NCBI RefSeq assembly: GCF_038396675.1
Contig: NC_088921.1
Location: 65,872,501-65,936,500 of the forward strand
Direction of reading: 5' to 3'
DNA length: 64,000 nt
From: Hydra vulgaris
Taxonomy: Eukaryota; Cnidaria; Hydrozoa; Anthoathecata; Hydridae
Shown here: piece after piece, positions 8,101-62,580 of the stretch
Layout of the letters: every line of letters starts with the position of its first letter
Numbering within the stretch: position 1 is the stretch's first letter
Position numbers and translations under genes: made by a program
The notes under the pieces: generated by a model
Seen by the model: the letters and a program-made list of their open reading frames with translations, nothing else
Told to the model about the DNA's origin: nothing
The model's database searches: none

Positions 8101-9451
8101 ACTCAATCAAAAAACTGAATTTTCAAATACAAACGTTACTCAAAAGAAATCGTCAAAAGACTTTTCAATTTCAAACCAGCATTTTAGTTCTAGAAGCGAT
8201 AAGTTAGAATTCCATTCTCCCGCTGTCAATAAAATTGAGAATGTTTCTGCAAAGAAAAATAAAAATACAAAATTGTTTTTACGTCGCCACAAAAATGAAA
8301 AACTTAACACTCCTGATATAATTCCAGTTAATCATTTTCATGATTATTCCAATGAAAATGATTCCATTGAAGACACCAAAAAACAAGAGACAACAAAACG
8401 CTGCTCGGGAAGTGAAATCAAAAGTTCTGAAGAGTTAACAGATATACGTTCTATTTGTTCTACAGATTCAGATATAAGTATTATACTAGGTGAAATAATT
8501 AATCGAGAATCTTTTTTGGAAAAAAATAAAAATAAAACAGGCTTAGGTTTTAAAAAGAAAATAAAATCAAAAAATATAAAAACTGCGCTAGTTGACGCGC
8601 CTAAAGTAAATGAAACCAAATTAGATGGAAATCCAGTTAATGATGAATCACGGAATTTAGAAAAGCCTGAAAAACCTGCGTTACATAATATGCATACATT
8701 TTCAGATCCAATAGATTTGTCTGTCGGTGTATCTATTGATGATAAGATTCAGAACCAGCATTATAATGGACTGTTGCAGAAAAATGTACGCTCTAATATT
8801 TTAAGTGCAACCCACAGTAACTATTCATTAGACGGTGTTTTGGCAAATAGAGATAACAATGACTCAAGCTCACACGAAGATGAGTTGGTTGAGATGTTTG
8901 AAGAAGCATCTAAACATACTTTGTCGGGTTCAACCAACGTTTTAAATGATCCTCATAGCTTTGAATCATCACATGAAAGGAAGAAGAAAAAACGTTTTCT
9001 TTTTAGTTGGAAAGGAAAAGGAAAATCTGACAAGAAAAAGCATAAGACAGAAAATGCTGGTAAATTACGTCTATCAAAAAGTCTAGAATTATTACCAGGA
9101 ATTAAATCTAGTTCAAAATCTCTCCGTACAGACAAATCAATTGAGGATGAAATAGTTAGTGATGAGGTTCCTAAAAAGAGAAAAGGATTTTTTAAAAAAA
9201 AGTTTAAGAATGATACTCATTCGGATATGATCGATAGCGATCGGAGTGAAATAGATTCCATTGTAAGCTCTATAGAAAGACATGATTCAGAATCTACAAG
9301 AACATTCATAAAAGAAGATCTCACGCGTGTATCTGATAGAACTAACGAAAATAATACAACTTCCAAATCAAAAGATCCAGTAACACATACAGTTTTTATT
9401 CAAAAAAATGTTTTTGTGGATGTCAAAAATTCCGACCAAACGGAGCTCTGA
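5138..9451 (+). CDS. Candidate host gene: disordered basic protein, three exons, about 904 aa
   Basis: Three exons join in phase. Exon 1 is 5138-5178 (ATG GAG TTT, donor GTAAAT), exon 2 is 5557-5728 (acceptor ATATAG, donor GTTTTT) and exon 3 is 6950-9451 (acceptor TTTTTTTAG, stop TGA). Exon 3 is open for 833 codons, and no ATG is needed at its start because the frame continues upstream. The product begins MEFLQALFGTSKDLKKKR and is rich in Ser, Lys, Asn and Asp, with no membrane segment, signal peptide or recognised fold, so it is probably intrinsically disordered. Basic clusters recur (for example KGLKKKLNKE, GFKKKIKSK, KKKKRFLFSWKGKGK, KRKGFFKKKFK), as do Ser-rich stretches beside basic residues that look like kinase targets. 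The C-terminus QTEL fits a class I PDZ ligand. An AATAAA lies near 9668. I recognise no family. Exon 1 is the least certain part. Confidence 0.7.
5818..5890. repeat. (AAT)n-type microsatellite
   Basis: Interrupted AAT/AATAAC repeats in the intron between exons 2 and 3 of the host gene at 5138-9451. Confidence 0.9.
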
Positions 9452-22913: not shown

Positions 22914-24005
22914 TTTCTTTTAGAATAAGTTTTTGTTTTCATTTTATCGAGTTATTTTACTGATTAATTTATGTAATGTAATTGTAATTCAATAAGTATG
23001 CAACGAAAAGTATATGTTATTCTTATTTTTAAAGGTGCAAGAAATGGGTTATAAATTGTAGAAGAGGAGATCTAGATAGAAAGTCTGTTGAAGTTTTGAA
23101 CAAAGAATATCGTTTGTGTAGTAACCATTTTGAAAGTTCAATGTACTATTTTACAAACAATGGAGGAAAACGTCTGCTTTATAATGCAATCCCTACATTT
23201 TTTAATGTTCCCAATCGACCACCATCTGTAGGAGAAAAAAGAAAACCACCTACCAAAAGAAATCATTTGCCTTTAAAAGTTAAAAAAATACAAAATGAAA
23301 ATAATGATAGTAAAGTTGAAAACACTCAAGCCAATATAGAAACTGTAAATATAAAAAAGTACAGAAAAGTCTAAAATTTATTGCGTACATCTCGTGTTAC
23401 AATATGCAGGCTACGAAAAAAAATAAAACTATTAGAGAAATAGCAATAACTCAATTAATCTTATTTTAGATTTATCTAAAAACTTTCTTTCAGATGATCA
23501 ACAAAAATTTTTTACAAGTCAAATAAAAATGAGTTACCGCCATAAAAAAGGAAATCGTTGGACAATATCGGATAAATTACTTGGACTACGAGTTATTTTT
23601 CATAGTCCACAAATTTATAAAATGTTAAGTACTATATTTTCTTTACCAAGTCGCAACACATTGAAATTGTTTCTAACAAGAGCTTATGGCGATATGCCAA
23701 CTGGATTCTCACAAAAGTTGTTTACTTTACTAAAACTTCGTGTTAATAACATGAATCAACATTATCGTAATTGCAGTTTAGTATTAGATGAGATGGCACT
23801 TAAACAACACTTAGATTATGATAAAAGTGTAGATGTTGTTTTTGGAATAAAGAACAAGAAACCACTGAATCAAGCTCTAGTTTTTATTATCAGAGGTATT
23901 GCCACTAAATGGAAACAACCAGTTGCATATTTTTTCAGTAACTCAACTGTTTCAACAGTTAATCTTATTAAGTTTATTCAAGAAGCTATATCAAAAGTTT
24001 GTCAG

Positions 24006-24136
24006 ATTGTCAGATCAGGTTATTGTCAGATCATGTTATCCTGTTGTTCATTGTTAATCATTGTTAATCATCCTGTTGTTCATATTAATCATTGTCAGAT
24101 CAGGTTATACTGCTACTGGTAACATGTACAATCTGC
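24006..24136. repeat. Small tandem repeats at the 5' junction of LINE copy B
   Basis: Repeated GTCAGATCAGGTTAT and CCTGTTGTTCATTGTTAATC motifs lie between the interrupted transposase frame and the first bases shared with LINE copy C. They may be element 5' sequence or an insertion-associated repeat. Confidence 0.6.
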
Positions 24137-27100
24137 TTCATGTCCTGCTGCCTTGTAGGATACGCCTTTTTAGGCTAAGGCTAGGAGATGCCAACTCCGA
24201 TTTAAAACACCCCCAGCCTTGGGGCTCTTGGTTGAGTAAAGGCTAGAGATGGTGTCTCGATAAAAATACTCATCTTGGGCAGATGTTAAATGCACCCAGC
24301 TACTGTCTTGTAGAAGGCCTCCGAGGCAAAAACTTAAGGGGTAAACAGATTCTATCTGTTGACCAGCCTCGCACCCCTTCTTCATCTATTAGGCTGGCGC
24401 AGATGTATTTTTAATACATTGTTTCCAGTTAAGGATGTTGAATACTGGATCTTCTTGACTCAATGCATGGGTTTGCTTGTGTCACTGTTTTTATGACTAA
24501 GCAACTCATTCTATTATCTCCTTATGAGGGTACAGCTCTAAAACTCAGTTTTATGGTTCTGAGGCCGGCTGGTAGTCAGGTTTCCCGAACGCTGTGGTAG
24601 CTCTCAGAGAGGCTGATTCCATCAACAGCTGAAAAATATCAAAGTACTAACAGTGCCATGTTGCGCATGGATGGTGTCCCTGTTTGTACTTTTGGTGTGC
24701 ATTGCGGAGGCCACATTTGGAGCCCTTTGTTACGGCTTAGGGTTTATTAGTAGTAATGAGGCAATTGCTTGGGCTATTAAACGGTGTTCTGAGTACTATC
24801 TATGCTTTGAGTCAAGTTCTTCAATCTAATTTAAAAATAAATAAAGTCACAAAAACTATAAAACACAAAAAACCATCATCATCAGCAAGTCCTCTAAACC
24901 TATCATTCACTAATATTCGTGGTCTTCGAAGTAACTTTTCTTCTGTTGAGTCTTATCTCTTGCAAAGTTCACCAGACCTACTTGCTCTTTGTGAGACTAA
25001 TTTAAGTTCAGCTGTCTCCTCTTGTGATCTTAGTGTTGATGGTTATCTTCCTCTGATTCGTAAAGACTCCAATAGTCACATGCTAGGCCTCGGCAATTAC
25101 ATTCGTAAGAATTCACCCATTTGTCGTGAAACTAGGTTTGAATCCACAGACTATTCTTTCATGCGCTTTTGTTTAGCACGACTTCACTCTATTGCCTTTC
25201 TCTTTGTTCTATATCGCTCTCCTTCATCTCAAGACTGCACTTTTTTTGATGTTATTTCTGATCATATTGACCAAGCCCTCTCTCTTTATCCATCAGCTAA
25301 TATAGTTGTTGTCGGTGACTTTAATGCTCACCACTCTGAATGGCTTGGCTCTAGTGTCAGTGACTCTGCAGGCATTAAAGCCCACAACTTTTGCCTTTCT
25401 CAATCCCTAACTCAAATAGTCAACTTTCCAACTCGCTTTCCTGACAACCCTAATCATTTACCTTCTCTACTCGACTTATGTCTTGTTTCTGATCCTAGTC
25501 AGTGCTCAGTTTCTCCGCATTCACCCTTAGGTTCTTCTGATCACAGTTTGATCTCTCTAAAACTAATATCTTATTCTTCTTCATCACCTGAATCCCCCTA
25601 TTACCGAACCTCTTTCAACTACAGTAAAGCTGACTGGGATTCTTTCCGTGACTTTCTTCGTGATGGCCCTTGGGTAGAAATCTTTCAACTTCCTGTCGAC
25701 AAATGTGCTTCTTACATAACTTCGTGGATTCAGACTGGCATGGAATCTTTTATTCCCTCTCGACGATTCCAGGTCAAGCCTCACTCTCCTCCATGGTTTT
25801 CTTCACACTGTGCTGCTGCGATTGCCAATCGAAACCGTTACTTCCATATTTATCAGCAAAACAATTCTCCAGAAAACAGACGTCTGTTTATTACTGCTAG
25901 AAACAATTGTAAAAAGGTTTTGTCTAACGCCAAAACCCGCTATTCTCAGGTCATGAAATCTCGTATCTCATCTCAAAAATTAGGCTCTCGTGACTTCTGG
26001 AGAATCTTTAATAATATCAATAATAAGGGCAAATCTATAATTCCACCTCTCTTGTATGGTTCAGACTTTGTCACCTCACCTAAAGACAAAGCCGAACTGT
26101 TTGCTAAAAACTTTTCATCAATATCATCTCTTGATTCCACTAATTGCGTTCTACCTGATATTGCCAAAAAACAGATTGATCCATTGCTTGACATTCATAT
26201 CACTCCAGCATCTGTATCTAAAGTGATTTCCTGCCTAGACTCTTCTACAGCATGTGGCCCAGACAACATACCTGTTATTGTCTTGCAGAAGTGTTCTCCT
26301 GAGCTGTCGTCTATACTCTCAAAACTATTCAACAAGTGCTTATCAGAGTCTTGTTTTCCAGCCTGCTGGAAAGCCGCATCTGTTATCCCTACCTTCAAAA
26401 ATTCTGGAGAGCGATCTGATTCGTCTAACTACCGTCCCATAAGTCTTCTTCCTATCATAAGCAAGGTTTTTGAATCTTTAATTAACAAACACTTAATTTC
26501 TCATCTTGAATCTAATAACTTACTTTCTGAACATCAATATGGGTTTCGATCTTCTCGTTCTACAGCTGATTTGCTAACAGTAATAACTGACAGGTTTTAT
26601 CGTGCATAAGATGAAGGTGGAGAGGTTAAGGCCATCGCTCTTGACATTTCAAAAGCTTTTGATAAAGTTTGGCATGCAGGTCTTCTTCATAAGCTTTCTT
26701 CTTATAGTGTATCCGGCAACATCTTTAAGATCATTGAATCCTTCCTTTTCAACCGTAGCATAAAAGTTGTCCTCGATGGACAACACTCTTCTTCTTATTC
26801 TGTAACTTCAGGGGTTCCTCAAGGTTCTATCCTTGGCCCTATACTCTTTTTAATTTACATTAACGATCTTCCAAATATTCTCACATCTAAGGTGGCATTG
26901 TTTGCTGATGATACTACCATTTATTCTTGTCGTGATAAGAAACCAACACCCTCTGATTGCTTGGAGGGGGCATTTGAACTTGAAAAGGATCTCACTTCTG
27001 CTACAGCATGGGGCTCACAGTGGCTGGTGAACTTTAATTCAGATAAAACTCAATTTTTTTCAGCCAATCGTTACCGCAATAATTTAGATCTTCCTATATT

Positions 27101-27816
27101 TATGAACGGTGATGTACTCGATGAGTCACCTACTCTTCATCTTCTAGGATTAACTCTTACTTCCAATCTTTCTTGGAAACCATATATCAAATCAGTTGCA
27201 AAATTAGCATCTGCTAAGGTTGCATCTCTTTATCGAGCTCGCCACTTTCTTACTCTGGATTCTATTCTCTATCTCTATAAATCTCAAATCCGGCCTTGTA
27301 TGGAATACTGTTGCCATATCTGGGGCGGATCTTCTAATGATGCCCTTTCTCTTTTAGACAAGGTGCAAAAACGCATTGTAAACATAGTTGGACCTGCTCT
27401 TGCAGCCAACCTTCAACCATTATCACATCGTTGTAATGTTGCTTCTCTTTCTCTTTTCTACAAATACTATAATGGGCAGTGCTCTAAAGAGCTAGCGTCT
27501 CTTGTGCCATCTACTAAAATTCATTCTCGTGTTACTCGTCATTCAATTAAGTGTCATCCTTTTTCTGTGACTGTTTCTAAGTGCTCCAAAAACGCTTATT
27601 CTTCTAGTTTTTTTCCTCGAACATCACTTCTTTGGAATTTGCTTCCTTCATCTTGCTTTCCTGATTGGTATAATTTGCAATCTTTTAAATCGTCCGTCAA
27701 TCGTTATCTTGCTCTACAATCTTCATTTTTTCTCTTACAGTAACTTCCAACTTTAATTAGTTGCTGCTTGCAGCCTTGTTGGAAGCGAAGATGTTTAAAA
27801 AAAAAAAAAAAAAAAA
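24137..27816 (+). mobile_element. Family-1 LINE, copy B (almost intact)
   Basis: Non-LTR retrotransposon inserted into the P-type transposase. A 5' UTR of about 620 bp precedes ORF2 at 24756-27743, a single frame of 995 codons broken only by TAA at 26607. The apurinic-type endonuclease comes first (NIRGLRSNF, LLALCETN, VVVGDFNAHH, GSSDHSLISL). The RT domain follows (YRPISLLPIISKVFE, HQYGFRSSRSTADL, ALDISKAFDKVW, SGVPQGSILGP, ALFADDTTIYS). A short 3' UTR and an A-run at 27798-27816 end it. No separate ORF1 is seen. The host frame resumes at 27817, and the target duplication is at most a few bases. Jockey/CR1-like by motif order. A single stop suggests a recent insertion. Confidence 0.93.
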
Positions 27817-29286
27817 GTTCAGGACTGTGGATTGTTAGTTTGGTGTATTGTGTGTGATCAAGGATCAACTAATATTGCAGCACTTAAAATTCTTGGTTTT
27901 TCAAAAATAAAATCTTATATTCAACACCCGTCTTTAAAAAATAGAATTCATATTATCTTTGATCCCCTCATCTAATTAAAAGTGTTCGCAATAATCTTAT
28001 GCGACATAACATTAATATTGATGGTAATATAGTTTCATGGAATCACATTAGAATGTTGTATGAGCTAGACAAATGCAATCTTATCCGTCTTGCACCAAAA
28101 TTGACTGACAAACATCTCGATCCTGGAGCATTTCTAAAAATGAGAGTTAATCTAGCAACACAAGTATTAATTCATCAGGTTGCCACCGCATTGTCTTTGT
28201 GTGTCACTGCAAATATATTACCGTCAACTGTAAGAGTGACTGCCCAATTTGTTGAAAAAATGGATATTCTTTTTGATCTGTTAAATTCAAGAAAGCTTCA
28301 GGGTGATAAACCTGCTCGTTGTGCTATAGCAACTAATGGAAATAACATTACATTGTTAAAAGAACTCCAAACTTGGATTAAGAAATGGAAGTTTTGTGAT
28401 GTACAATCCCAATCCAAGATAGCTAGTCATTGGGGGTTAAATGTTACAATTAACAGTATACTAGAATTGTGCCAGGAGCTTCTCTTGGAAGGATTTCCTT
28501 TTGTTTGCACATCTCGCTTCAACCAAGATTGATTAGAAAGTTTTTTTGGAACTATACGGAGTAAAGGAGGGTGGAATGACAGACCGACTGTAAGACAATT
28601 TCGAGCAGCTTACCAGAATACCCTTTTGCTGTTGTCAGTAGAAACTAGTAAGTCTAATAGCAACTGTCTGGCAGAAACAGATTTTAGTGTGGCATTGTAT
28701 CTAAATTCCTTATTTGAAAATTCACAAAAAATACTAACTAAAAAAGATTGTCTATTTTTTGATAATAATACAAAAAATAATGTTCTTTTAAACAGATTTC
28801 CTGTTGCTATCCTTATAAAATAATCTATTGAACAATCACATACATATTTCTCTAACTTGTTAATAAAAAGAATCTCTCTGTGTCAACATTGTAAGGTAGT
28901 ACTTTGCAGTGAATCGATTGATTTTACAATAGCTAGTAAGAATGGTATGGAGACCAATAAACAAACAAACATCCAAAATTGTTATCCAAATTCATCGTTA
29001 GTTTCTTTCATTTCTAATATGGAAGTAGTTTTCATAGAATATATTGAAAAGTGGCTTGATATGGAAAACCTGGCTTTTAGATTATCTTCCAAAATAATGG
29101 AAATATGTTCTTTTGAGTTTTTATTCAAATATCACTTCGAACATGCTTTTTACCTACAAAAAAAAATAGTCCATATATTCGTCATATCACGAATATTTTA
29201 TTTTATTAAACTGTATAACCGAGATCTTTCTCCACGAAATAAAAAAAACTATAAAAAGATGGAACGTTTGCTACACAAATAATTTC

Positions 29287-29730: not shown

Positions 29731-32700
29731 ATGGCTAAATTAAAACATTTTCTTAGCATGTCTTGCATTTCTTTACAGTCTGTAAGAAAATTAATTGAGA
29801 ACGGTTGTATTGAAAATCTACGAACTGTTTATTCCGAATTGTCGTTAAGGATTAATTTCCTTCACAAACCAGATCTTTATGACTTATTGACTGTTCAAAA
29901 GTCAATAAAGAGAAATATTTCTGTCGAGTGTGGCATTCCACAGAATTCAAGGAAAACTATGGCGTTGAAGTAAGCATTTCTCTATTTATTTCAAAAAGTA
30001 AAAGAAAAAATATTTGGAAAAATTCATTCTTTACATCAACTACAACAATAGTAATAATAATATTATTAATAACAATAATAATAATAAAAATAAATTTGAC
30101 TTAAAATTGCTTTAAGAAAATTAGCATAAGCAAACCATTTTTTTAATTTATCTTTTGCTTTAATCTAATTGATTTGCTTTTTTTTTATCAAACATAAATT
30201 CTTGAATAAAATTTTATTTTACATTAAGTTTGGTGCTTGGCGTTGGATCTTTTTTACTGTGTATTAAAAAGCTTTATTCATTTTTTTTACAGATCTGAAT
30301 CTACTGGTAGTTGTCTATTTAGTTCGTTTTCTATTTGCCTGAGTGGTGATAATAGTTTGGTAATGGATTTAAGAATTCTGACAGCAATTGATTTATATTT
30401 AAATCCCTCATTTTATAGTAATCATCCATCGTTTGTCAGCTTGTGCTTAAAGTATCCAAATGAGTTTTCATCGATAGATAATTTGTTAGCAGTGTCTGTG
30501 TCCACACATTCTGTAGACTCAGGAAAACTAAAAGATGATCTTGTTAAGGAAGAAGCATTACATATATGTCAAGAATTTGTATGGTCTGGTTTTCTTTGCG
30601 TTCTTGCTCCTTCAACTGTGTGTTTTAAACGAGTTCAGTGTTACTACAGAACAATTAGTTCGTTCCTAAAATATAAACTTATGTTTAATCTTAAAATTGA
30701 ACCTCGTATTTTATCTCCATCATCAGATGTTCTGAATTTATTGTTTTGTTTTGAAGGATCAAATCCTTCACTTCTATATAAACACAATCATTATGTACCT
30801 CTAGTTTTTGTTCCAGATGAGAAGTGCTTGAAGCGTAAATTTTTATGTAAAAAAGTTAGTAATTGTGCTAAACAATTAACAATTACTATGTTTACAGATA
30901 AATACAACACCAATCAAGAACCACCTATTTCTACCATTGCTGATAAATCTTTTTTATATGAACTTAATAACAACAAATTTATAACACCCTCTCACAGAAA
31001 TAGTGTCTTTGATTCCTTTATAGATTCAAAATCGTGTTCTTCCAATACTTTGCTACCTTTAAATAAAAATGATTGTAAAATTAAAAAAAAAAGTTTTTAT
31101 CTGCCAAAATTTCAAAACTAGAGTCTAATACAAATAAGTTGTCAGGTGAATTTCCTAGTGAATATGATATTGCATGCTTTCGTTCACAGGCATCTACTTT
31201 AAATGATTTGCAATTAAAAAACTTGATTAGAAATGTTTTGCCAGATGAGCGTTATTGTTTTTCAAAAACATGGGCGATCTTTCCAACTTATCTGGTTAAA
31301 GCAATTTTTATGGCTTAGTTATTCACCATCTGAAAATGGATCATATTGTTTGAGTTGTGTTTTGTTTGGGTTTAAGTACTTTTCGAAATCTAGTAGATGT
31401 AAAAACTTGTTTTCTCAGCCTTTAAAGCACTGGCCAGATGCTGTGAGTGCTTTTAAAAGACATTATCATGGGAAAAAAGGAAAGATTAATGAACATCACT
31501 TAGCTGTACAAAGTCTTCATTATAACACCTGGACCATATTTTCAGCAGTTTTAAATACAATGAATGGAAGTATTCAAAATATTGATATTTTAATTAATAA
31601 AGAATATGAAAAGGAGGTTGCTTTAAATCGGGACGAATTGCATTCAATTGTTGAATCATTTTCTTAGGCCGTCTCAATATAGCTTTTAGAGGTCATCGTG
31701 ACAATTCCCAACATCATCCTACTGTTGGAAAATATTCTTTAGTAAATGGAGTCGGAAATTTTGTTGAACTTTTAAACTACAGGATCAGAGGTGAGGATAA
31801 AGTTCTTGAGCATCATCTTAACAGCTGTGCAAAGAATGCATCTTATATTTCTAATTCGTCACAAAATGAATTAATAAATTATTGTGGAAAATATATCCAG
31901 AATATTTTAATTTCCGATATAAAGGAAAATCAATTTTTTTTGATAATTACTGTTGAAGCATCTGATTGCTCCAATCAGGAACAAATGTCTTTAATTATAA
32001 GATTTATAGATAGTTCTTTTGATGTAAGAGAAGAAGTTATGGGTTTTTTGCATTGCAAATATGGTTTATCAGGAGAAGCTCTTTGCAAAACTATTTTATT
32101 ATGTCTTAAAGATTATTCTCTTGACATTTCCAATTGTCGAGGTCAGGGGTATGATGGTGCAGGATCTGTTGTTGGTCATATTAAAGGTCTTGCAAAGAGA
32201 ATTAAAGATTACAATGACAAAGCAGTTTATACTCACTGTTTTAGTCATCGACTTAATCTTAGTGTAGCAAATTCGTGCAAACTGCAAGAAGTCAGAAATA
32301 TGATGGAGCAAGTAAAACAATTGTCTTATTTTTTAATTTTTCTGAGTCAAGACAAAATTTATTAGAAGCAGCTATCACCAAACATTGTCCTTCTGCTACA
32401 AAGAAAAAATTAATTGATGTTTGTCACACAAGATGGGTTGAACGCATAACTGGGTTGAATGATTTTGAAAGTTTGTTTGTACCTATTGTTTTTTGTCTTG
32501 AAGGAATGAGTATGAACTTAGAAAAAAAGTGCAATAAAGAAACTTCCTCACAAGCTTCTTGTTTTTTAAAACTCATTACAACTTTTGATTTTATTGCATC
32601 TTTAGTGATTACTTGAACATTTCTTGACTACACTATTCCTGTTACACAAATGTTGCAAGGAAAAACTTTTGATATTTGTGATGGTTTAAGTTCTGTTTCA

Positions 32701-33389
32701 GCTTTAAAAAGTTGTATGCTTACACTTAGAAGTCTAATAGATGATTATCACATAAAGTGGTATGATACAATTCTTTGTTTTGCTTCTAAAGTTGATGTTG
32801 CAGAAGTTAAATTAAAAATATCAAGGTGTCAAATATATAGAAATATTGTTCCTTCTTGTTCAACTTCAGATTATTTCAAGAAATCGTTAACCATACCACT
32901 TATCGATCACCTCCTATTTGAAGTTAATAACAGATTTAGTGTTGATGCTTTGGTTGCTTATGATGCTTTGGTTATTATTCCAGATAAAATGTCTTATGTT
33001 TCTAAGAAGATTGACTGGAAAATTGAGTTTCAATCTTTTGTAAATTTTTATTCAACAGATTTGCCATGTGCAATTTCTTTAAGCGCAGAACTTGATTTGT
33101 GGAAAGCTTTTGGGTTCAAGAAAAAATTTGCTTACCAGATAATATTTCAAGTACTTTAAAAAGTCTTCCTAAAAATCAATTTGCAAATTTAAGAGTTAGT
33201 CTTTGCATTCTAGGAACATTGCCTGTAAGCTCTTCTGCTTGTGAAAGATCGTCTTCAGCTATGAGACGATTAAAAAACTACACACAAAGTACTATGTCAT
33301 CTGAGAGAATGAACAGTCTTGCTTTATTGCATATTCACCAAGAGATAGAACCTAATATTGAAAAAGTTATAGACTTATTTGCACTTTAA
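29731..33389 (+). pseudogene. OTU-like domain fused to TTF/DUF4371/hAT-type transposase (decayed)
   Basis: The first exon at 29731-29968 (MAKLKHFLSMSCIS) has donor GTAAGC. It joins in phase to an exon at 30293 (acceptor TTTTTTTTACAG), giving ALKSESTGSCLFSSFS. That region up to about 30815 resembles an OTU-type fold: a Cys in GSCLF and a His in NHYVPLV are where the catalytic pair would be, but the usual Asp before GSC is Thr. The frame continues past a shift in an A-run at about 31085 into a hAT leader (YDIACFRSQ). Then come a TTF-like zinc finger (WLSYSPSENGSYCLSCVLFG), a DUF4371 region (FRGHRDNSQHHP, GYDGAGSVVGH, HCFSHRLNL, CHTRWVERI) and a C-terminal hAT dimerisation block (PVSSSACERSSSAMRRLK) ending at 33389. 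Stops and frameshifts at about 31267, 31665, 32315, 32614 and 33157 inactivate it. No terminal repeats were found. Confidence 0.75.
30048..30090. repeat. (AAT)n microsatellite
   Basis: Short AAT-type repeat in the intron between the first two exons of the OTU-hAT gene. Confidence 0.85.
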
Positions 33390-35839
<2,450 letters not shown>

Positions 35840-36092
35840 GCGGCGAAGTGTTGCACACAATTTTTTTTTAGGATTTGAAATTATCAAAGGTATTGAGTCT
35901 AAAAATGCAAAGAAAGTTATGTGATATCTAAGGCCTATTAATATATTAAGGCTTGAAATTGGAAAAAAATGTTTTAGTATACTTACAAAATGAACCATTA
36001 CGGCAGAGGCGCTTAGTTTTGTAAAAATGTAAACATATCCAACTGTCAATACAAAAAGGTCCTAACATAATAATAAAAAAAATTCGTGTGAT
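35840..36092 (+). repeat. Left terminal inverted repeat (253 bp)
   Basis: Matches the reverse complement of 40865-41118 over its full length with about three differences. The inner end is at ATTCGTGTGAT. Confidence 0.95.
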
Positions 36093-36337
36093 TTTGTCAC
36101 ACGCATGATATAACATGAATTAAAAACTGAACAAAAATCTAACATCAAGATAACTATATTGCTAATTAAATAAAACATAAATCAAACATTTAAATGTTTT
36201 TCCATTTAAAAATTAGTTTTTCATTTATTAATAGAGTCATTTACACACATTATCCACCACATCACACATAATTTCTACTCTGCTGCAGTAAGTTTCTCTA
36301 AGAATAATGATATGACTGTATTATAGTCTTCTTCGGA

Positions 36338-39300
36338 TTATGAATAATCGCCACAACCACTGATTAGAAAAGGAGCATTTACTAAACAGATCATTTTATC
36401 AGTTTGGTTATTTATCTCCTCGGTAGTAACTGGCCAGCGAAAAGTATTCTTCTCTTGCCCGTTAATCATACAATTAACTCTGATCCCAGTTATAGATACC
36501 TAAAAGTATTAGCGCAACATTTAAAATAATATAATAAAGAGTTTATGATTTGTTTAATTTTGCTTACATTCAATAAAACTTGTAAAGTCTTATATAATGT
36601 CATTCTGAAATTATTTTTACATTTTATTTATATTCCTTTTATTTTAGAGCACTGTTTTGTAAAACAAAATAAAAACTTGAAACTAATATATACTTTGAAT
36701 AATATTACCTCCACAATATATCCAATATTCCATTGTTTTTCATATGCAACAGCAACCCAATCATTCACTTTCCATACAAGACAAATTTCTTTTGCAAGAT
36801 TGGCGATGTCTTCCTCATATTTATTATCATCTTCATTGTCTCCTGCCAGATTAAAGTCATCATTTTTGCCATAAACTTCTTTGTTATCGTTAACCTGACT
36901 ATTTTCATTATTTTCTGTTGTCGGTTCTACCAGCTTACCTTTTCTTTTCAGGTTACTAAATCTATAACAATATCAATTGTACATATTTTTAAACATATGT
37001 AAACAAACACACAAAATTATAACTTTCACCTAAATTTTAATTTCATATTTGTAAAAGAACTATTTAACAGTCAGAAACATAATCTAATTTGCAAAAGTTT
37101 TGATAGCAACAATGCCTACCTTGAAAATAAAGATCTTATCTGTTGGCTAGTTACATATTGATCAGGCGGAAGTTCTCTCCTCAGCTGCATGTGAACCTGC
37201 TCAGGGCTCATTTTATTACCTGATTCTTCTCCACGAATAAAGTATTTATACAACAGTTCTTTCTGCTGATTTGAAAATCTAAAAGAACTTCGAACTGGTA
37301 ATGCCCAACCTTGCAATAGAAAAATGTTCATGCAATGTGGTTTGTCTTTTACGGAAGCACTGTTAGAGGATGATGAAATTGGCATATTTAGTTGTGAAGT
37401 AATTTTCATCCTATGAACAAACGAGTTGCGAACTTTATCCAATGATGTTAATGATTTCGGAACTGTATGAAGACCGGATAGCATGTGTTCTTCTAACTCA
37501 GCATCGCTTTCAAATGATAAAGTACAATTCATTTCAGTGCAAAATCTTAATGAATATAATTGCCTGTCACTTCTTTTCTGTTTTTCCTTAAGTAACTAGT
37601 TACGCTTAATTGAATTATCTGTTTTGCTATATGGCAACAACAACTTAATCGAGGGTTGAATTTTAAGATTTCCATACTCTTGTTCAATTCCCTCACCGAT
37701 ATTGAAATAACGCCACATCTTCATACTTTTCTCACCAAACTCAAATGAGTGATAGTTGCTAATGTTCTTAATCTTTGGTCCAGTAACTACAGTTTTATCA
37801 TTGCTAATTTGAGCAACTGCTACTTTTGCATCTTTAGCGCCAAAACTATAATGCATAGCCTTGTGTATATCTTCAGCAGTCAAAAGATTATTACCAGAGT
37901 CAACGTAACTCCTTAAAATTGTCTTTACAACTGCACTCTCCCTGTCACATTGATCTTTTCCACAACAGGGTTCATTATAATCATATCTCAGCAACTTTAT
38001 ATCTCTCTCTTTGCATACATTGTAGATTGCTTCAGCTGAAAGATTTCCCTGATAGCAGCCGGCATTATCAGATTTGGTAAACATTTTCTTGATATGCGGT
38101 TGATCAATTCTGAATTGGTCTAAAACTGCAGTGGCTAACGAAACAACATCACCTATTCCCTGATCACACCTATACATTGAAGTAAAGTAAACACGTTTGA
38201 ATAACTTTCCTGCTATTTTTATGAAGAATATATCCACATGTAAACTCATTCCTTTCTTGCCAAAATACTCTCTTTGTATCCTCTCTGTAGCCCTCTCTGT
38301 ATCGAACCGGAAGAATTTTTTGACAAAAATCTTTAAGCCAGAAAGCAGTTTCATCGTTTAATTGCTTAAAAGCTTCGATTTTTGCCTTTTTCTGTTGAGA
38401 ATCTCTCATCAGGTGTTTTATGTAGTTGAATACATCCTTTACAGCAATTTCCAAATCATAAATAGAATCAGCATCGTCAGAATTTTGAATTGTTAGTTCT
38501 TTGATCATCTCGATAGCTTTGCACAAATCATAGCAATCGGCACATACCACTTCTGATATCTCTGTGTTGGATTGAAGATTTTTTTCAGATGGATCTGATA
38601 AGGCATGTTTTGAGCTATGAGAAGAAATGTTTGAGTCATTGACACTACAATTGGTTTGATAACTTGTTTTCAAATACCTTTTTCCTTTTTCAAGGGCAGC
38701 TTCGAGAGGTTTAGAACTAAATCTTTGTGCCAATTTTTGTAATGTTTGAAAACCATTCATGCCTGAAGCAGTAACATCATCTAATCCAGCTAAGCTTTTT
38801 CGACTTGAAGGTTTTATTGCATGCAATACTTTCCACAAACTTGAATCAGATAATGGTATATAACTGTTTTCACTACAACTTTTTCGATAGAACATGATAG
38901 CGTGGCTATATTTTGTCGTCAGTATTGCATGCACTATCTTTTGTTCTTCACCGCTGTCGTATTTTAATTTGGTTATTCCATAAGCAACATCATGCAAAAT
39001 ACCGCTTGTAAATATAAAGTCTAAGAAATGTTCACACTTTGTTTGATCAAGACTAGATCGGACGAATACTTTCTTCTCTGGAAATACCAACCCTTTATGA
39101 GATGCATGCCATTTTCTTGCTGTTTCTATACGATGTTTGGTACACTCAAATGTGTTCATTATAAAATTTTTGGTATACTTGGTATGGTCTAATAATGAGA
39201 GGATAACTAACTTTCCCATGGAATCACTTTGCTTATATACTTTATGAGCACGAATAATTTCAATTGGGAGAGGGCTATTTATTTCATCAACATTTTTACT

Positions 39301-40386
39301 GTTAAGAAAATCTATAAGTATTTCCTCTTGTCCAGGAGCAACAGCTTCCGCAAATTTTTTCTTTAATAAGTTTTCTAGGCGAACATACTTGCGTTTTAAC
39401 TTATCTTTAGTAGTATCTTCCAGATATTCGAACTTCCTTTTTAATCTAAATTTTATTGGACTTGCATTAAGAACCTCAGTTACACTCTCACGGCTTCTTA
39501 GAGATTCGTCCAAAATCTCCTGTGAAACATTAATTTCACCGAGATCAAATTCTTCATCTGGAGTAGCAGGTGTCATATATGTTTGTTCTTGTTGTGTTTG
39601 TGTTTCTGTACATAAATTGGTGTTTTCGTTGACTCTAGATAAAGCAGTTTCTTGCTTTAAATGGGTAAAACACAGCATTGCACCAACTGAAAATACTTCA
39701 TTGTATCGCTTTGACATTGATATGACGACATGTATTGGTGACGCCCTTAAAGCGGGAGATTTTTTTCATTTTATATTTAGATGGTGAGGATGAAAGCATG
39801 TTTTTGGAGGACTCCATGCAATACCAAACGTGTACCGGTGAAAAGCACATATTTGTTCATCCTTTTCAAGATTTCTTTTAAGTCTATTTGCAATAAGTCC
39901 ATTTTCTTCCCAAATATTATTATCGTTTAATCGCATGACCTAAAAACAATTTTTTAAACAATTATTAAGTGTGTCATTTAAAGCATTGTTTATAATCTGA
40001 CTCTTCACGAAAAATGTTTACAAGTTTGAAATACATTGTTGTTATTATTAAAATACAATATTGCAAGAGTGTGATTAATTTAGTGATTATTTATTAAAAG
40101 AGTGAGGAATTAATTAAAAGAGCTATTTTTTTTTGTTTAAAGAACTTTGTCTCAAAATCTTATTGCAGAGAAGTTATAAAGTATGTAATTATAAAAATTA
40201 TATTACAGTCTGCGTAAATTTAAAATACATAATTACCTTTAAGTTGATGAGGTGTTTCTTAACATCAACATCTCCCAGCTGATGAATGTAGAACATTTTG
40301 TTTATAATTTTATGTTTTTTGAATGATCCACAATTTCCTTTTGAAAAGCAACAACAGTTTTCATAAAAATAATTGTTTTGTTTCAT
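36338..40386 (-). pseudogene. Transposase of the 5.28-kb element, four exons, nearly intact
   Basis: Exons on the minus strand: 40386-40237 (ATG, donor GTAATT), 39939-37120 (acceptor TTTTTAG, donor GTAGGC), 36961-36709 (acceptor TTATAG, donor GTAATA) and 36499-36338 (acceptor TTTTAG, stop TAA). All junctions keep frame if one frameshift is allowed in exon 2, giving about 1,120 residues. The N-terminus is Cys/His-rich, ending CFHPHH after CAFHRYTFGIAW. The middle has SLHVDIFF, FTKSDNAGCYQGN and GKDQCDRESAVVK, which supply Asp/Glu residues spaced about 55 and 41 apart and could be a DDE/D triad. A C2H2-like motif (CTEMNC with LEEHMLSGLH) lies near 37500. A DWVAVAYEKQWNIGY segment near 36740 may be SH3/chromo-like. 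Damage: TGA near 39755, a frameshift near 38280 beside a short duplication, and TAG near 37597. The motif roles are inferred. Confidence 0.82.
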
Positions 40387-40864
40387 ACTCAACTAAAAAC
40401 AAGTTCTATTTATGCAGTACCTATTTCTCAATAGCAATGATAAAATATCTACTCTATTTATGCAAATTTTAAAGATCGTTAAAATAAAGTTAAGACATTT
40501 TTATGGTAAAGTAAACAACCGCCCACTAACTTGTTTCTCCACAATCGTGATATCAGCGATTCTTCTTCCATTCGATCACCACAAGTTATTTGGTTATGAC
40601 GTAAATTTAAATAATTCACTTCTGATCATGTATTGTTTTTTATTATTATTTATTTCAATTGTTATGATTTCTATATCATAGTCAGAAACGCTTAAATTTT
40701 TTCTTAACATTACGTGCAATGTTTTGTGTAATGCTAAATGCTAATTTTGGATGATAGAAATTTTATTGTGAGCGAAAACCTCATCTGTGTGTCCAAAAAA
40801 ATATCTCTTCGTACTTAATCATTTTTAACAATTTGTACCTTTATTTTTAACTTAATATCTAAAG

Positions 40865-41118
40865 ATCACACGAATTTTTTTTATTATTATGTTAGGACCT
40901 TTTTGTATTGACAGTTGGATATGTTTACATTTTTACAAAACTAAGCGCCTCTGCCGTAATGGTTCATTTTGTAAGTATACTAAAACATTTTTTTCCAATT
41001 TCAAGCCTTAATATATTAATAGGCCTTAGGTATCACATAACTTTCTTTGCATTTTTAGACTCAATACCTTTGATAATTTCAAATCCTAAAAGAAAAATTG
41101 TGTGCAACACCTCGCCGC
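40865..41118 (-). repeat. Right terminal inverted repeat (254 bp)
   Basis: Inverted partner of 35840-36092. The inner end is ATCACACGAATT and the outer end CTCGCCGC. The flank that follows is TAGAATTA. Confidence 0.95.
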
Positions 41119-41560
41119 TAGAATTAATTCCGATTAAAAGTTGACAAAAGTGATTGATTTTGTACTTTTGAACTATGATAATTAGCCAACCGCACAGTGT
41201 CACGCAACTTTTTTATATTTTTTGGAGAGAGCTTTTGGGTTACGTCTGATATTAACTACAAAAACTATGTGCAACTTTTTGCCTTGCCAAAAAAATGGGT
41301 TCAAAGGTGGCAAAAACTAAATTTCTAAAAATTTTTAAAAAAATCTCAAAAATTTAAGCCCAGATTCCGAGTGAACGAAACATTTTTGAAAATTTTTTTT
41401 TTCCCCAACAGGTTTTTTCTATATTCTGATCAATATATAAAAAATTCAAGCAATTTGGAGGAGGTCACTTCCATTGACTGCCTGATTCTTACAAAAAATG
41501 ACTCTTATAAATTACAAATTACAAGATAACATTGTAAAATTCTAGAAAATATTATTACTA
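41119..41560. other. AT-rich spacer
   Basis: No gene or repeat family recognised between the large transposon and the next repeat cluster. Confidence 0.4.
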
Positions 41561-52835: not shown

Positions 52836-53811
52836 AAATTAAAAAAAATTTCATTGTCTCAGTCTTTTTAGCAAGCGCCATCTGCATGTCAGACTTTTTA
52901 CCTGTCTTTGACTGTATAACCATCTGAGTTCTGTATGAGACTGTATGATATTCTGTATGAGACTGCATAACTGTATGATATTCTGTATGAGACTGTATGA
53001 TATTCTGTATGAGACTGCATAATCTTCTTTGATTGTATAACCATATGAGCTCCAGAGTTAGAATTTTTTATAAAAAAAGTGGAATTAGATTACTGGCAAG
53101 ATCTCAGTTCGAATATTTAGAGATTGCATGTTATGTTTTTTTTTCTTTTTGCATAACTACTCTGTTTGTAGACAGTTCATTAGAAATAAAATCCTTTCTA
53201 GGTCTAAAAATTCAGAAGGTGATTGATATCTAGTTTAAGCTTTATACTAAGTTATGAATTTCTTAAGATTAAAAAAAAATATAAAATTAAATAGGAAAGG
53301 GCTTATTTACATTCTTGTATTTATGTTTTTGTTTTTTTGCAGTGAAAAAATTTAGAAAAAATTTTTTTTAAATTTGGCTTCAGCGCTGCATTCTTAATAA
53401 GAGACTAATACATAAAGACTGATATATGTACTTTATCCATTTAATTATACTTTGTTTTAATAAAATATTTTCTAATCAAGAAAAGGTCCTTAGCAAACCT
53501 ACTTCGAAATTGTAAAAAGGAATAGATCTTTTCATAAGCTTAAATTTTATTTTTTCATAAAAAACCTATTATTGTTGATGTACCCTAGTCATCAAAAATA
53601 TTAAATATGTTTACTTAAGTCATGGCTTAAATAAATAACCTTGATATGTGTGTGTGAGCGTGTGCCTGCGAATATGTGTACAAGTGTAAAAAAAATTATG
53701 TCATGTAATTAATTATAATAACATACATAATAAAAATAAAAAAATTAATAACTTGTCTATTAAATTGAAAAATTGTTTTTATAAATATTTAAGAAACAAA
53801 GTTCAACTCAC
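52836..53811. other. Spacer with short tandem repeats
   Basis: Repeats of CTGTATGATATTCTGTATGA and AGACTGCATAA fill 52925-53030. The rest is AT-rich and probably intronic for the minus-strand gene. Confidence 0.5.
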
Positions 53812-55770
53812 TTTTTGAACAGATGATTTATTAGTTAACAAAATAGACTTGATTTGCTCCACTACTCCATTGTAAACAACCTTAGGAACAAACAACTCTT
53901 CCTCACTAAACTCCTCATCGAGATTATTTGAAGTAAATATTAAAACTTTAAAGTTCTGTAAGTTGTTGCTACCATTCAGATTTTTAACACCAATTTGGTA
54001 TTTACCATATTCTAATTGTGCATCTCTATCAACCCCTGGTATAATGGTTAGTCGACTGATGCGCTGATTATTTGGATTTAAGTCAAAAGCCAAATAAGGT
54101 TTTTGAGTAAAATTTTCTTTTTTAGATATATCATTGATACGCTCTATAACAGCATTACTGGGACTCTCTTTAAGTACATTTGTTTCTATAGATTTTGAGA
54201 GTTTTGAATCTATTATCTTGAGAGAAGAATATGAGTTGAAATTAGTACTTGCAATATTATTATTTTCATAAAAAATACCGCTTGACATAGGTATTTTTTC
54301 TTCTGAATGTTTATCTATTTTGTGATTATCTTCTTGGTAAACTTTGATCCCAGATGACTGATCATTAGGTACATAACTACTGTTATCAACTTTTGTATTA
54401 ACAGTGGTTGACTGCTTGTTGTTAGCAGTTTCTTTTAAGTTTCTAACAGAAAACTGAGTTGAATCTAAGCTTTCTTTTTGTAAAACATCTTTTATATCAA
54501 AATTTGAAACTGGTTCTTTAACATCATAATCGTTTACTATAACTTGACCAAGCTTATTGAAGACAATATTTTTTTTCAATTCTGGAGCTGTTCTTGCGTC
54601 AGTTTTATTAAAAACATCATTTTTTATAGATTCTGGAATTGTATTTGCACCAGTTTCATTAAAAATAGTGTTGCTTTTTTTTAACTCTGAAGCTGTGCTT
54701 TCATCAGTTTTATTAAACACAATGTTTTTTTTTAAATCAGGAGTTGCATCAATTTTTACAACACTGATGGGACTATAATTTATGGAAGGTTGCAAACTCA
54801 TTTTTTTTAAAATTTTAACATCTAGCTGTTGGTTTTTAATACTTTTGCTATCTTTTGATGAAACTAATTCAGTTGAAGTTGCAAATTGGCTTGTGCTGAT
54901 TGGGTAGTGTATTACTTCCGGATTTTTTTTCTCTTTAAAATTTAACAGAATTTTATCCTTACTTTTTGTATCAAAATTTGATATTTTATTTAACTGAACA
55001 TTTTCAGAAATAGTTTTTTCCTTTGAAATAGGAAATTTAACTTCTTGTTTGCTAATGTTTAATAAATTCATTTTATCCTCAGGTATATTGTTTGATGTTT
55101 GTTCATTATAAACAGTACCTCTTAGCTTTTTCTCATCTTTCATTAAAAGTTCTTCAAGATTTAGAACAGGCTTTTCTTCAGTATCAACTGGTTGATAAAA
55201 TATCTGGTTACTTAGAGTTTGCATAAATAGACTTTTAGTTCTTCTAATTTTAGTAGGTTTTTTTTCTGGTTTTATAACATCAGATAATATTTCATAACTT
55301 TTTTGGTTGTTTAAACTAATATTATTTTTATTTACATAACTTGAGTCCTTGGCTAAATAATCTAATGAAATGCTGCGATCTAATTTCTTAATTTTTTTAA
55401 CAAAACCTTCTGAATTACTTTCTGATGGACTTTTTGAATAACCAAAATCAAAAAATGAATCAACTTCATTAGAATTTGAAGGTGTAGATTGATTATCTTT
55501 CACTACAACATGTCTTAATTTAATACCCCATAATGATTTAATATCATCTAAATTTGTTGACTCACTGTCACTTTCAACTTTAACTGTTGATGTACTAACT
55601 AACATGTCTTCTTTAGCTAAATCTCGTGATATAATGGCACTACCATACTCTTTAGATAATGACATTTGTTTCTGTAGTTTATTTTGTTGAATTGAACGAG
55701 CATTCTCATTTGTAAAATTAAAAGGCTCCTTCCATTTTGGGTATGATCTTTGAGACACAAATGATGCCAT
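53812..55770 (-). CDS. Candidate host gene: disordered Ser/Lys/Asn-rich protein, main exon
   Basis: A long open frame starts with ATG at 55770 (MASFVSQRSYPKWKEPF) and gives 653 codons to a strong donor, CAAAAA then GTGAGT at 53811. Without splicing it would stop two codons later, at 53803. With the exon at 49015-49314 the protein would be 752 aa. It is low-complexity and rich in Ser, Lys, Asn and Thr, with no signal peptide, membrane segment or known domain. The last 130 residues look more ordered (RLTIIPGVDRDAQLEYGKY, FKVLIFTSNN, FVPKVVYNGVVEQIKSI). Four imperfect repeats of about 18-20 residues with VFNKTD/IFNETG lie near 54540-54770. A TTTAG acceptor about 20 bases before the ATG could serve cis or spliced-leader trans-splicing. 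Function unknown. Confidence 0.65.
54540..54775 (-). repeat. In-frame imperfect repeats (about 54-57 bp, four copies)
   Basis: Successive segments PDLKKNIVFNKTD, ELKKSNTIFNETG, ESIKNDVFNKTD and ELKKNIVFNKLG within the long exon show internal duplication that kept the reading frame. Confidence 0.8.
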
Positions 55771-56019
55771 AGTATAATTAAATGAAACTAAATGTATTTA
55801 AAATGCTTACCTACTGCTTCTTCTCTATAAAACATTGTTATATATTTTTCCTAAAAAATAAATAAAGTATAAATTTAAAAAGAAACAAAATTTTTTTAAA
55901 GATTAAAAAATATAGAACAAAATATGATTAAAAGATAAAATTTTGCAGCATATGATGATATAGTTAGGCACATACTAAAGACAGTATTATCAATGATAGC
56001 AAGTCTATCAACCTTGATA
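55771..56019. other. 5' flank of the minus-strand gene
   Basis: A GTAAGC donor-like site lies near 55811 on the minus strand. It could end an upstream non-coding exon, but the gap to the ATG is too short for an ordinary intron. Confidence 0.4.
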
Positions 56020-58847: not shown

Positions 58848-60048
58848 ACGAATGAATATGCTATTTTGACCTCTCAAAACGAATTCTTCCCGGTGAAGGT
58901 TGACCGGTTGAAAAAAAAGAAGAGTTATATAAGATTTGACAAATTATCAAGATGTCTTTAAAAATGCATTTACTGAAATTTCATAAAATGTAAATCTTTG
59001 GAAAAAGCTTCTAAAATAATTTTATCGTTTGTACGCTACTTTAAATCGCTTTGTTAGTGAGTATTATAAATAACGTAAACTATTGATTTTTTTTGCTTCA
59101 CTTATTAAGACTAATTTCATTTTACTGGTGGTGAAATCCATAACTACTTTTTTTATAAATGAATGAAGTTCTTATTTTATTACTGTTTTAATAATAGTAT
59201 AATATTAATTGAGAACATTTTTTTATTCCTACATTTTATTTAAATTTTCTTTACATCATTTTACTTATTTTTCTTTTTTTCTACCTTTTGCTTTTAAATT
59301 TTACCTTTTGCTGCCAATTGCAATGAAAAAATACCTTTATTTTTTATTTTTAGTTTAATTTATCCGTAGTCAACAAAACTTACAAATTATCGACTAAAAG
59401 CCGCACACCAAGCCCTTCTGTGATGAAAATAAATTTCTTAGATTTCAATTAGTTAACACTCCGGAAAATAGAAAGTTCGTATTTGAAATTGTCGAGGCTC
59501 TTATGTTCTCTATTTTAAAGACTCTTGGTTCGGTTGACGCTGAGTGACTGAGAAGTTAACTTTAATATTTAGATAAATTTAAAATTACCAAATGCGCGTT
59601 TGCTTTTTTTTTTCTACTATTAAAATTTAAAAGATATATATACTGTAGTATAAAGTTTCGTTTTAAGTAACTTAAATAATTTTGATAGTAATTCATAAAA
59701 CGATTTTATAAAATCAAAAAATTTTATAGTTTATAAAATGATTTTAAATAAAAATGAATGAAAGATATAAAATGATACAAATGAGATATAAAATGTGCAA
59801 TCATTTTTCTTTTTCAACGTCGGTAACGACTGAAGTTCTTATTTAACCATTATTTAAAATCAAAGTATGTAGCTACGAACATTTTCTCCTTTTTTTTCAT
59901 TCATTTTTCTCGTAACCTTTTCCCTCAATTTCTGAAGTCATAGCAATGAATGAGTTTTTTTAAATAAGTTTCAAATTAACAATTGCGAATTTGAACATTT
60001 TTTATATTACTAAATTGTAAGAGAATCGTCAAACATCAGCACTTCAAA

Positions 60049-62580
60049 ATGGAGGCGACTAAAAAGAGACAAACAACACTTTCATTTTTAACACAAGCAG
60101 GATCGGAATTAAAACCACCTGTTGAAAAGAAGAAAAAACTCAATAGTAGAAAATTACAGCTAACAACAGCTCAAAAATGGGTAAACACTACTCTTGCAAA
60201 ATATAATGCAAATGAATGGCTAGAGATATTATATAATGGAAACTATGTTACAGCATTACAATGCACTGTATGTCGTCAGTATACTAAACAAATTGATATT
60301 TATAAAGGATATACGCCAGAATGGGGAAGCGATGAAGGTAGTTGTAGGATACAGCACAGTGCCGCAGTTGATCATGCAAATGGTTTGCCACATCAAAGAG
60401 CCTACGAATTAGCAATGAAAAGTAAAGGAATGGATGTAAGCGAACGAAATGATAAATTAAGCAACCTGCAGAAAGAAATGCGGCAAACTGATATTTTATC
60501 GGGCCTGAAAACCATGACCACGAAAGATCTAAATTTAACAAAAAAAAAATTTGAGGTAGCATACTTTATTGCCAAAGAAGAGCTTCCGCTTAGCGTATAC
60601 CCTAAAATACTACGTTTGGAAGAAAATCATGGTGTAGAGTTTGGCCAAGCATATAGAAATAAAATAACTTGTGGAACTTTTATTGATTACATTGGATTGA
60701 GTTTGTCAAATATTCTCAGAAATAAGTTGAAAACACGAAATTACTTCAGTATTTTAATTGATGCATCAACAGATGTATCTGCAATTGAAAAAGAAGCTAT
60801 ATTTATTATCAGTTTCGATCCTACTCCAATAGGAAAGACCGAGATATGCGTTGAGTGTTCTTTTCTTTCTATTTCTGATCTTGAACATGGAACATCTGAA
60901 GGAGTTTTCAATAAAATTAGTCAATCCCTTGAATCAGAAGGTATCGAAAATTTTAAAACTAAATTAGTTGGTTTTGGTGCTGATGGCGCAGCTGTAAATA
61001 GAGGAAGTAGAACAAGTGTAAATGTATTACTTCAGAAAGAAATTCCATGGGTAACTTTTGGTTGGTGTGTTGCACATCGCCTTGAGTTAGCGTTAAAAAA
61101 TAAATTTGCACAAATGAAAGCGTTTAATGATGTCAATAACATCATTTTGAAAATGTATAACATTTATAAAAAATCCCCAAAAAAGTTACGACAGTTAGGA
61201 AACCTTGTTGCTATCCTTGAAGAGGGTAATTCATTTGACATTGCAGGTATTCGCCCCAAAAAAGCATCAGGTATATTGGATTTTTTTTTCAATTTTAACT
61301 ATAAAAAATACTTTATAAAATAATATACTTTATTAGATGCTGGTTTTTTATACAAAAGTTCTTTATAAAACAGTATTTTGAGCAATAAAAACTTTTTATA
61401 AAATAAAATACTTGTGCAATAATAAATAGGAACACGATGGATTGCACATAAAATTCAAGCACTTGAGATGATCTTAGACAAATATGGAGTATATATGAAA
61501 CATCTCGAAAACATGACTGCAGATTTCAGTTTTACTCAAGCAGAAAGAGCAAAGTTTAAAGGGTATCATCAGCAATGGAATCATGGACGAATACCGCTTT
61601 ATATAGCATTATTCATAGAAGTTTTATCGCCAGCAAAGTTGTTATCTTTATCTTTTCAAAGCAACGAAATTGATTCCGTAGCATCATCTGGATTTATTGA
61701 ACAAACTAAAAAACAGTTAAGTCGCTTGAAGAAAAAAGAATTTAATGATTTACCAACTGTCAAACGTTTCCTTGCAAAAGTAAAAAACAACACTGGTAAG
61801 TATTCATTCCAGGATGTTGAGCTTCATGACTTTACAAACGCACTAACTTTAGTTAAGAATTCGAAATCAATGATTGTATCGTTAATTGCCGAATCCATAG
61901 AAGAGCGTTTGGAAACACAAAATACAGTTCCTGATATGTATGGAATGTTAATCCTAAACACTGGTAGCTGGTTTCAAAATAACACCAATAATTCATTTGC
62001 CGATGATAACATCGAAAAATTGTATGACTTTTATAATATGCCGTTACGTAATGCTGGCTTCACTGGGAGTGTAAATAATATGTTAGATGCTTGGCATAAC
62101 TTAGTTGATTACACTGTCAAATATTTGGCACCAGATAAAACTGAGTACCGTAAAGTATGGTATCAAATTTTTTCGAGTTCTATGAAAAAAGATTGGAGTC
62201 CAGTTCTACTTCTTGTTGAATTGTTGTTCGTATTGCCTGTTTCGAATGGAAAGGTTGAGCGTCTTTTTTCTCTTATGAATAGAATTAAAACTGACACAAG
62301 AAATCGCTTAACTGAAAAACGGCTCAATAATTTAATTCGGGTGTGTACTGATGAAACAAATAGTGGAGAATTTGATGTGAATCCTGCCATTGAATTATGG
62401 GCCGAAGATACGTTGCGAAGGCCTACACAAGAAAGTCGAAAAACTTATTCAAAAAAAGAAAAGAAAAAAACAACTATAAAAACATTAATTGATTTAGAAT
62501 CGTCATCAGACGAGTCTTTAGATTTAAAATTGTCTTTCGATGAAACTTTGGATAATGAATCAGATGAAACGTATATCTAA
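60049..62580 (+). CDS. hAT-family transposase, two exons, 790 aa
   Basis: Exon 1 is 60049-61270 and exon 2 is 61430-62580. The junction CATCAG then GTATAT, and AATAG then GAACACG, restores the conserved hAT segment GTRWIAHKIQALE, so the 159-bp intron is well supported. Seen in order: a Lys-rich start (MEATKKRQTTLSFL), a TTF/BED-like Cys/His finger (LQCTVC with later His), a catalytic-domain Asp region (LIDASTDVSAIEKEA), a second Asp region (VGFGADGAAVNRG), the CxxH motif (WCVAHRLELAL), the insertion domain, and the C-terminal dimerisation block (LPVSNGKVERLFSLMNRIKT). An acidic tail closes it. It resembles the hAT relatives of ZNF862/KIAA1586-type proteins. No inactivating change is visible, so it may encode working transposase. 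It acts in the nucleus on its own element ends. Confidence 0.92.

Follow-up and report, generated by a model that had tools for sequence, protein, structure and literature searches.

Sola transposons, which occur in bacteria and plants, are defined by a DDD transposase and a 4-bp target duplication, and Sola3 inserts at TTAA. Kolobok elements have a TTAA duplication together with 5′-RR..YY-3′ termini (PMC9587614, PMC6004289), and a THAP domain is usual among them (PMC6004289); a C/DxxH signature is given for Kolobok, hAT, P, MuDR and Dada (PMC9587614, PMC10045372, PMC3706591). The termini of piggyBac are 5′-CC..GG-3′, Tc1/mariner elements duplicate TA, and IS3EU/GingerRoot elements have a 6-bp duplication and, for the most part, TA..TA termini, with TG..CA occasionally in GingerRoot (PMC10045372). 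Here we compare with these systems an element from Hydra vulgaris, located in a 64,000-nucleotide stretch of contig NC_088921.1 (positions 65,872,501 to 65,936,500, assembly GCF_038396675.1), hereafter the window. An earlier note, made from the letters of the window alone, had described it as a young 5.28-kb transposon at 35840..41118 with 253-bp inverted repeats and a four-exon transposase of unplaced superfamily. From comparison with its genomic copies and from predicted structures, the element very probably belongs to a young, autonomous family of Hydra DNA transposons and is a damaged copy that has lost its left end; the family has terminal inverted repeats (TIRs) of ~645 bp, GAG..CTC ends, a TTAA target duplication and a transposase with a predicted RNase H fold and D-D-D active site.

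Genomic copies and their ends

A search of the genome (911.5 Mb in 15 contigs) with the repeat as query returned 528 first-look candidates, and all 40 that were scored, the window copy included, matched at 99-100% across the whole query. Twenty loci were fetched for comparison of ends, gene and duplications. Both repeats were present in inverted orientation with the gene between them in 19 of these, at a spacing of 3.9-6.2 kb (mostly ~5.26 kb), while the twentieth (L028) held the gene and one repeat. Repeats and reading frame therefore travel together, as the earlier note's definition of the element supposed. The borders that it had drawn at 35840 and 41118 were rejected, because the genomic copies share further sequence outside these inner repeats. 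Indeed, the true terminus lies 385-395 bp farther out at 35 of 39 ends, ~386 bp at the end upstream of the gene and 395 bp at the opposite end; the distance is 324 in L022 (a deletion) and 421 in L019 (an insertion), and one end each of L011 and L019 was not placed by our script. The complete repeats are therefore ~645 bp long and the element is ~6.05 kb, rather than 5.28 kb. Copies terminate in GAGTCATTTT and GAGCCGTTTT, and a GAG start was read at 34 of the 39 ends; the remaining ends read GAA or GAC, apart from one that the script took one base off and two that it did not place.

Alignment of genomic copies, which the earlier note had proposed for finding the target duplication, supplied it: identical 4-bp sequences flank 15 of 19 copies, as TTAA in 13, TTAT in one and ATAA in one. 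TIRs and a target duplication of fixed length thus occur together in several copies, as expected of a DDE/D transposon.

The family is also young, as had been proposed: within a copy, left and right repeat differ by 0 to 2.6% mismatches with a median of 0.5%, and three of 19 copies show none. For 20 of the 38 repeats the closest repeat, ties included, is their own partner. Private bases common to both repeats of one copy number 13, versus 4 common to two copies, when L019 is left aside, and 48 versus 4 when it is included; 36 of these 48 belong to a single insertion found in both L019 repeats, and the majority of private bases (136) occur once. By such comparisons some homogenisation seems to have taken place between the repeats within a copy, and repeat-based dating therefore yields a minimum age. 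Private variants that both repeats of one copy often have in common (L009-L027) suggest repeat-to-repeat conversion or a replicative step.

The copy in the window has the following parts, given in window coordinates.

35840..41504, minus strand (the gene strand): element remnant, left end truncated, delimited by comparison with the 19 two-ended copies
35405..35839 (start approximate), no strand: AT-rich simple repeat adjoining the truncated left end
35840..36095, no strand: left TIR, inner part only, outer ~395 bp missing
36275..36499, minus strand: exon 4, rest of the small beta domain and C-terminus, normal stop at 36277-36275
36709..36961, minus strand: exon 3, acidic linker and beginning of the small beta domain
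37120..39939, minus strand: exon 2 (2820 bp), N-terminal Cys/His cluster, helical region, catalytic core, C2H2 motif and C-terminal helical domain
40237..40386, minus strand: exon 1, Cys-rich N-terminus, phase 0, donor GTAATT
40861..41504, no strand: right TIR, complete (~644 bp), terminus GAGTCATTTT reading inwards
41505..41508, no strand: TTAT, 4-bp target duplication on the right side (most of the copies examined have TTAA)

The remnant thus retains ~5.67 kb of the ~6.05 kb of a full element. Its inner repeats (35840-36095 and 40861-41118) are 98.45% identical over 258 aligned columns, with two mismatches and two gaps. The inverted repeats that had been reported, with about three differences, are therefore real and nearly identical, but the length of 253 bp covers only the inner part of the full repeats. 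The outer left repeat was not found within the window, where an (AT)n tract takes its place; deletion, microsatellite growth or an assembly fault may account for its loss. The window copy shows no target duplication because its left end is truncated and the borders had been misplaced, which removes what had seemed odd for so young a copy. A GAAT duplication near 35840/41118 was set aside, since it needs both borders to be shifted and random flanks match by at least 4 in 24% of trials.

The gene and its transposase

Four exons on the minus strand make up the gene, with GT-AG introns of 297, 158 and 209 bp between them. The four exons and the frameshift of the earlier note were recovered, exon 2 being out of phase, with the shift at about 38277-38280, but the frameshift is not the single lesion: in-frame stops occur in addition at 39768-39766 and 37598-37596 in exon 2 and at 36340-36338 in exon 4, so that the window copy carries four lesions. 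Less damaged copies are present in the genome. For example, the longest gene-strand frame is 936 amino acids, the size of exon 2, in five of the 20 fetched loci, and in three of these five, three stop-free matches also run over the end of exon 2 and through exons 3-4, the check covering exons 2-4. Several Hydra vulgaris proteins match the open reading frames (ORFs) of the window at 90-97% identity, and others at 85 and 47%. As judged from these sequences, the family has many near-identical copies, a few of them with an open reading frame, and is recently active. Near-identical copies, a few open genes, a defined TTAA target, long repeats and a model animal as host therefore make it a practical candidate for an active transposon.

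Relatives of the protein were found in cnidarians, molluscs, bdelloid rotifers and nematodes, in agreement with the earlier recognition of its core as widespread in invertebrates. Throughout these sequences a D-D-D triad is conserved, with the strand 1 residue in 145 of 147, the strand 4 residue in 151 of 153 and the residue of the last helix in 148 of 148. The first Asp lies in WLKDFCQK, and the second and third are held by SDNAGCY and CDRESA, two motifs that had already been singled out. Between first and second Asp lie 82-84 residues in 125 sequences out of the 132 listed, and between second and third lie 40 residues in 143 of 146. The aspartate of an HVD motif was rejected as the first catalytic residue, as only 105 of 150 sequences have D at this position, which sits on strand 2. 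AlphaFold2 models of two relatives (P0052 and P0089) adopt an integrase/mariner-like RNase H fold; in that of P0052, D574 lies in strand 568-575, D657 in strand 651-657 and D698 in helix 696-713. The predicted models of relatives thus show the arrangement of a DDE/D core, in which an RNase H fold carries one D each on its first strand, its fourth strand and a downstream helix, and the DDE/D core that had been proposed from residue spacing is supported. This indicates that a group of animal proteins annotated only as uncharacterised or 'C2H2-type' are transposases.

Several modules accompany the core, and each had been noticed previously. These are an N-terminal Cys/His cluster (C..H, C.HP.H, C..H), a C2H2-like motif, for which profile comparison with the PDB gives weak support from C2H2 chains (best E 0.0026), and the WV.V.YE segment, which falls in a small C-terminal beta domain predicted in the model of a relative. 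Among the relatives, residues 287-318 of P0144, upstream of the catalytic core, give a weak RFX winged-helix match (E 4.4e-5, below the cut-off), a lead for a DNA-binding domain. At the place occupied in Hydra-type proteins by the small beta domain, the C-termini of P0156 and P0162 show SAP-like matches that are weak and below the cut-off (E 0.003 and 0.084), which hints at a C-terminal module that varies from lineage to lineage. Pfam matches to SAP (2 of 18 relatives), RFX (1 of 18) and Rad33 (2 of 18), which were below the cut-off where shown, were not used, nor was P0166, a composite gene model with kinase domains named 'Transposon Tf2-6 poly' at source.

With such an architecture, the N-terminal Cys/His cluster and the helical and C2H2 regions would bind the long repeats, and the protein would pair both of them by analogy with DDE/D transposases. 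The DDD core would then cut at the GAG termini and join the resulting 3′ ends to TTAA with a 4-bp stagger, after which repair would produce the 4-bp duplication. The small C-terminal beta domain may be a chromatin or DNA reader. Excision, that is cut-and-paste rather than copy-and-paste, is assumed by the same analogy. Comparison of copies and relatives shows the TTAA duplication and the conserved triad, and the mechanism is well supported.

A number of points weigh against this assignment. The element is known from sequences and predicted models. Both structural models are of the relatives P0052 and P0089 and not of the Hydra protein. In Foldseek searches of the PDB nothing fell below E 1e-3 with the large model, and the single match that did so with the core was a cytomegalovirus terminase nuclease (5.4e-4) and not a transposase. 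The searches made assign no function to the C-terminal beta domain or the N-terminal cluster. Fifteen of the 20 fetched loci lack a full-length open exon 2, their longest frames being 387-914 amino acids. Finally, the flanking tetramers are not identical in four of 19 copies, two of which are one base apart and two of which have one unplaced end; L015 has TTAA/GTAA, and in L025, where the script read the end one base off, the flanks again differ by one base when the end is taken at GAG. As to the Foldseek PDB results overall, the top rows are general RNase H-like folds (SPARDA, cytomegalovirus terminase, RNase HI) with SETMAR at rank 49 in one search, and in the VIA comparison with the PDB Mos1 and SETMAR are the only DNA transposases among the matches listed, which excludes no family. 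Two BFVD matches fell below 1e-3, one to the polyprotein of a seco-like virus and one to a protein of an ostreid herpesvirus; both extended over ~950-1140 columns at 10% identity with TM of 0.08-0.10 and were not used.

Neighbouring features of the window

Other mobile sequences lie near the element. A P-type transposase at 23436-28529, with a TNP-like RNase H part (23436-24119) and a GTP-binding insertion part (27963-28529), appears split by a non-long terminal repeat retrotransposon at 24741-27740 that encodes an endonuclease and a reverse transcriptase. The element at 30228-33390, which we take to be hAT-like, has a DUF4371 match (31655-32362) and broken frames. Two ORFs at 59995-62577 look like a further transposase, hAT-like or domesticated; one, the first, has a match to the C17orf113 zinc finger that falls just short of the cut-off, and the second is without a Pfam match. 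Long Ser/Lys/Asn-rich ORFs at 6950-9451 and 53803-55797 have no Pfam match at E≤0.001 and are possibly host genes.

Comparison with named superfamilies

The earlier description of the superfamily as unplaced holds in one respect, in that neither the 8 relatives scanned at E≤1 nor the 18 scanned at E≤0.1 matched a Pfam transposase family; the same library does name the P-type and hAT-like ORFs in the window. However, the TTAA duplication, the GA..TC termini and the DDD triad point to an existing named group over a new one. We lean, with modest confidence, towards a member of the Sola superfamily (Sola2 or Sola3) that is already catalogued for Hydra, of which this copy alone would be new; such a placement concerns the name and leaves the mechanism as it stands. 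The DDD triad and the 4-bp duplication are shared with Sola1-3, and the TTAA target with Sola3, the likeness being one of description. Scans of IMG/VR and GTDB contigs, which find close motifs only, gave 13 and 41 pattern matches and confirmed no relative in these viral and prokaryotic collections, which speaks against Sola given its occurrence in bacteria and plants. In its favour, Sola-2 is listed among 14 putatively active transposable element families of H. vulgaris (PMC12220107).

The less likely course, though a real one, is that these are TTAA-inserting DDD transposons of a superfamily without a name yet. It would be an animal superfamily with an integrase-like core, GAG termini, ~645-bp repeats and a seemingly lineage-variable C-terminal part, with recent activity in Hydra and members in cnidarians, molluscs, rotifers and nematodes. 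The lack of Pfam transposase matches agrees with this, as does the fact that no description of this transposon family was found in the literature searched, Repbase reports and subscription journals being outside its scope. However, Pfam does not cover all superfamilies, and Hydra repeats have long been curated in Repbase/Dfam. If the name is Sola, then the triad, the fold prediction and the true ends in Hydra are gained for Sola; if not, a new superfamily is gained.

A divergent Kolobok element is improbable. Its TTAA duplication and RR..YY termini fit the GA..TC ends found here, and zinc-binding-type motifs are common to both, but of 146 sequences only 7 have C/DxxH between the second D and the last catalytic residue, the other 139 lacking it. 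In addition, no THAP domain occurs among the Pfam matches of the 8 and 18 relatives scanned, the last catalytic residue is D instead of E, and the core model has no insertion between the fifth strand and the last helix. The near absence of the C/DxxH signature also led us to set aside hAT, P, MuDR and Dada. That a multicopy host gene family lies between inverted repeats by chance is scarcely credible, even though NCBI annotates copies as uncharacterised Hydra genes, as ends, target duplications and gene occur together at different genomic places with different flanks.

Of the remaining named groups, piggyBac shares the TTAA duplication but differs in its termini from the GA..TC of the Hydra element, and the Pfam scans made gave no piggyBac match. 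Tc1/mariner was discarded on its TA duplication, against the 4-bp TTAA here, and IS3EU/GingerRoot on both its termini and its 6-bp duplication. For Academ, Novosib, Zisupton, Zator, Transib and Merlin the comparison is an indirect one, by way of the Pfam scans, which gave no transposase match. A sequence match of the Hydra family to retroviral integrases or to the Mos1 mariner transposase was looked for and not found; their N- and C-terminal parts are other than those of the Hydra family, and Mos1 duplicates TA. Nevertheless, in the models the family shares with these integrases and with Mos1 the same RNase H core arrangement, in which the first strand, the fourth strand and the last helix carry the acidic residues.

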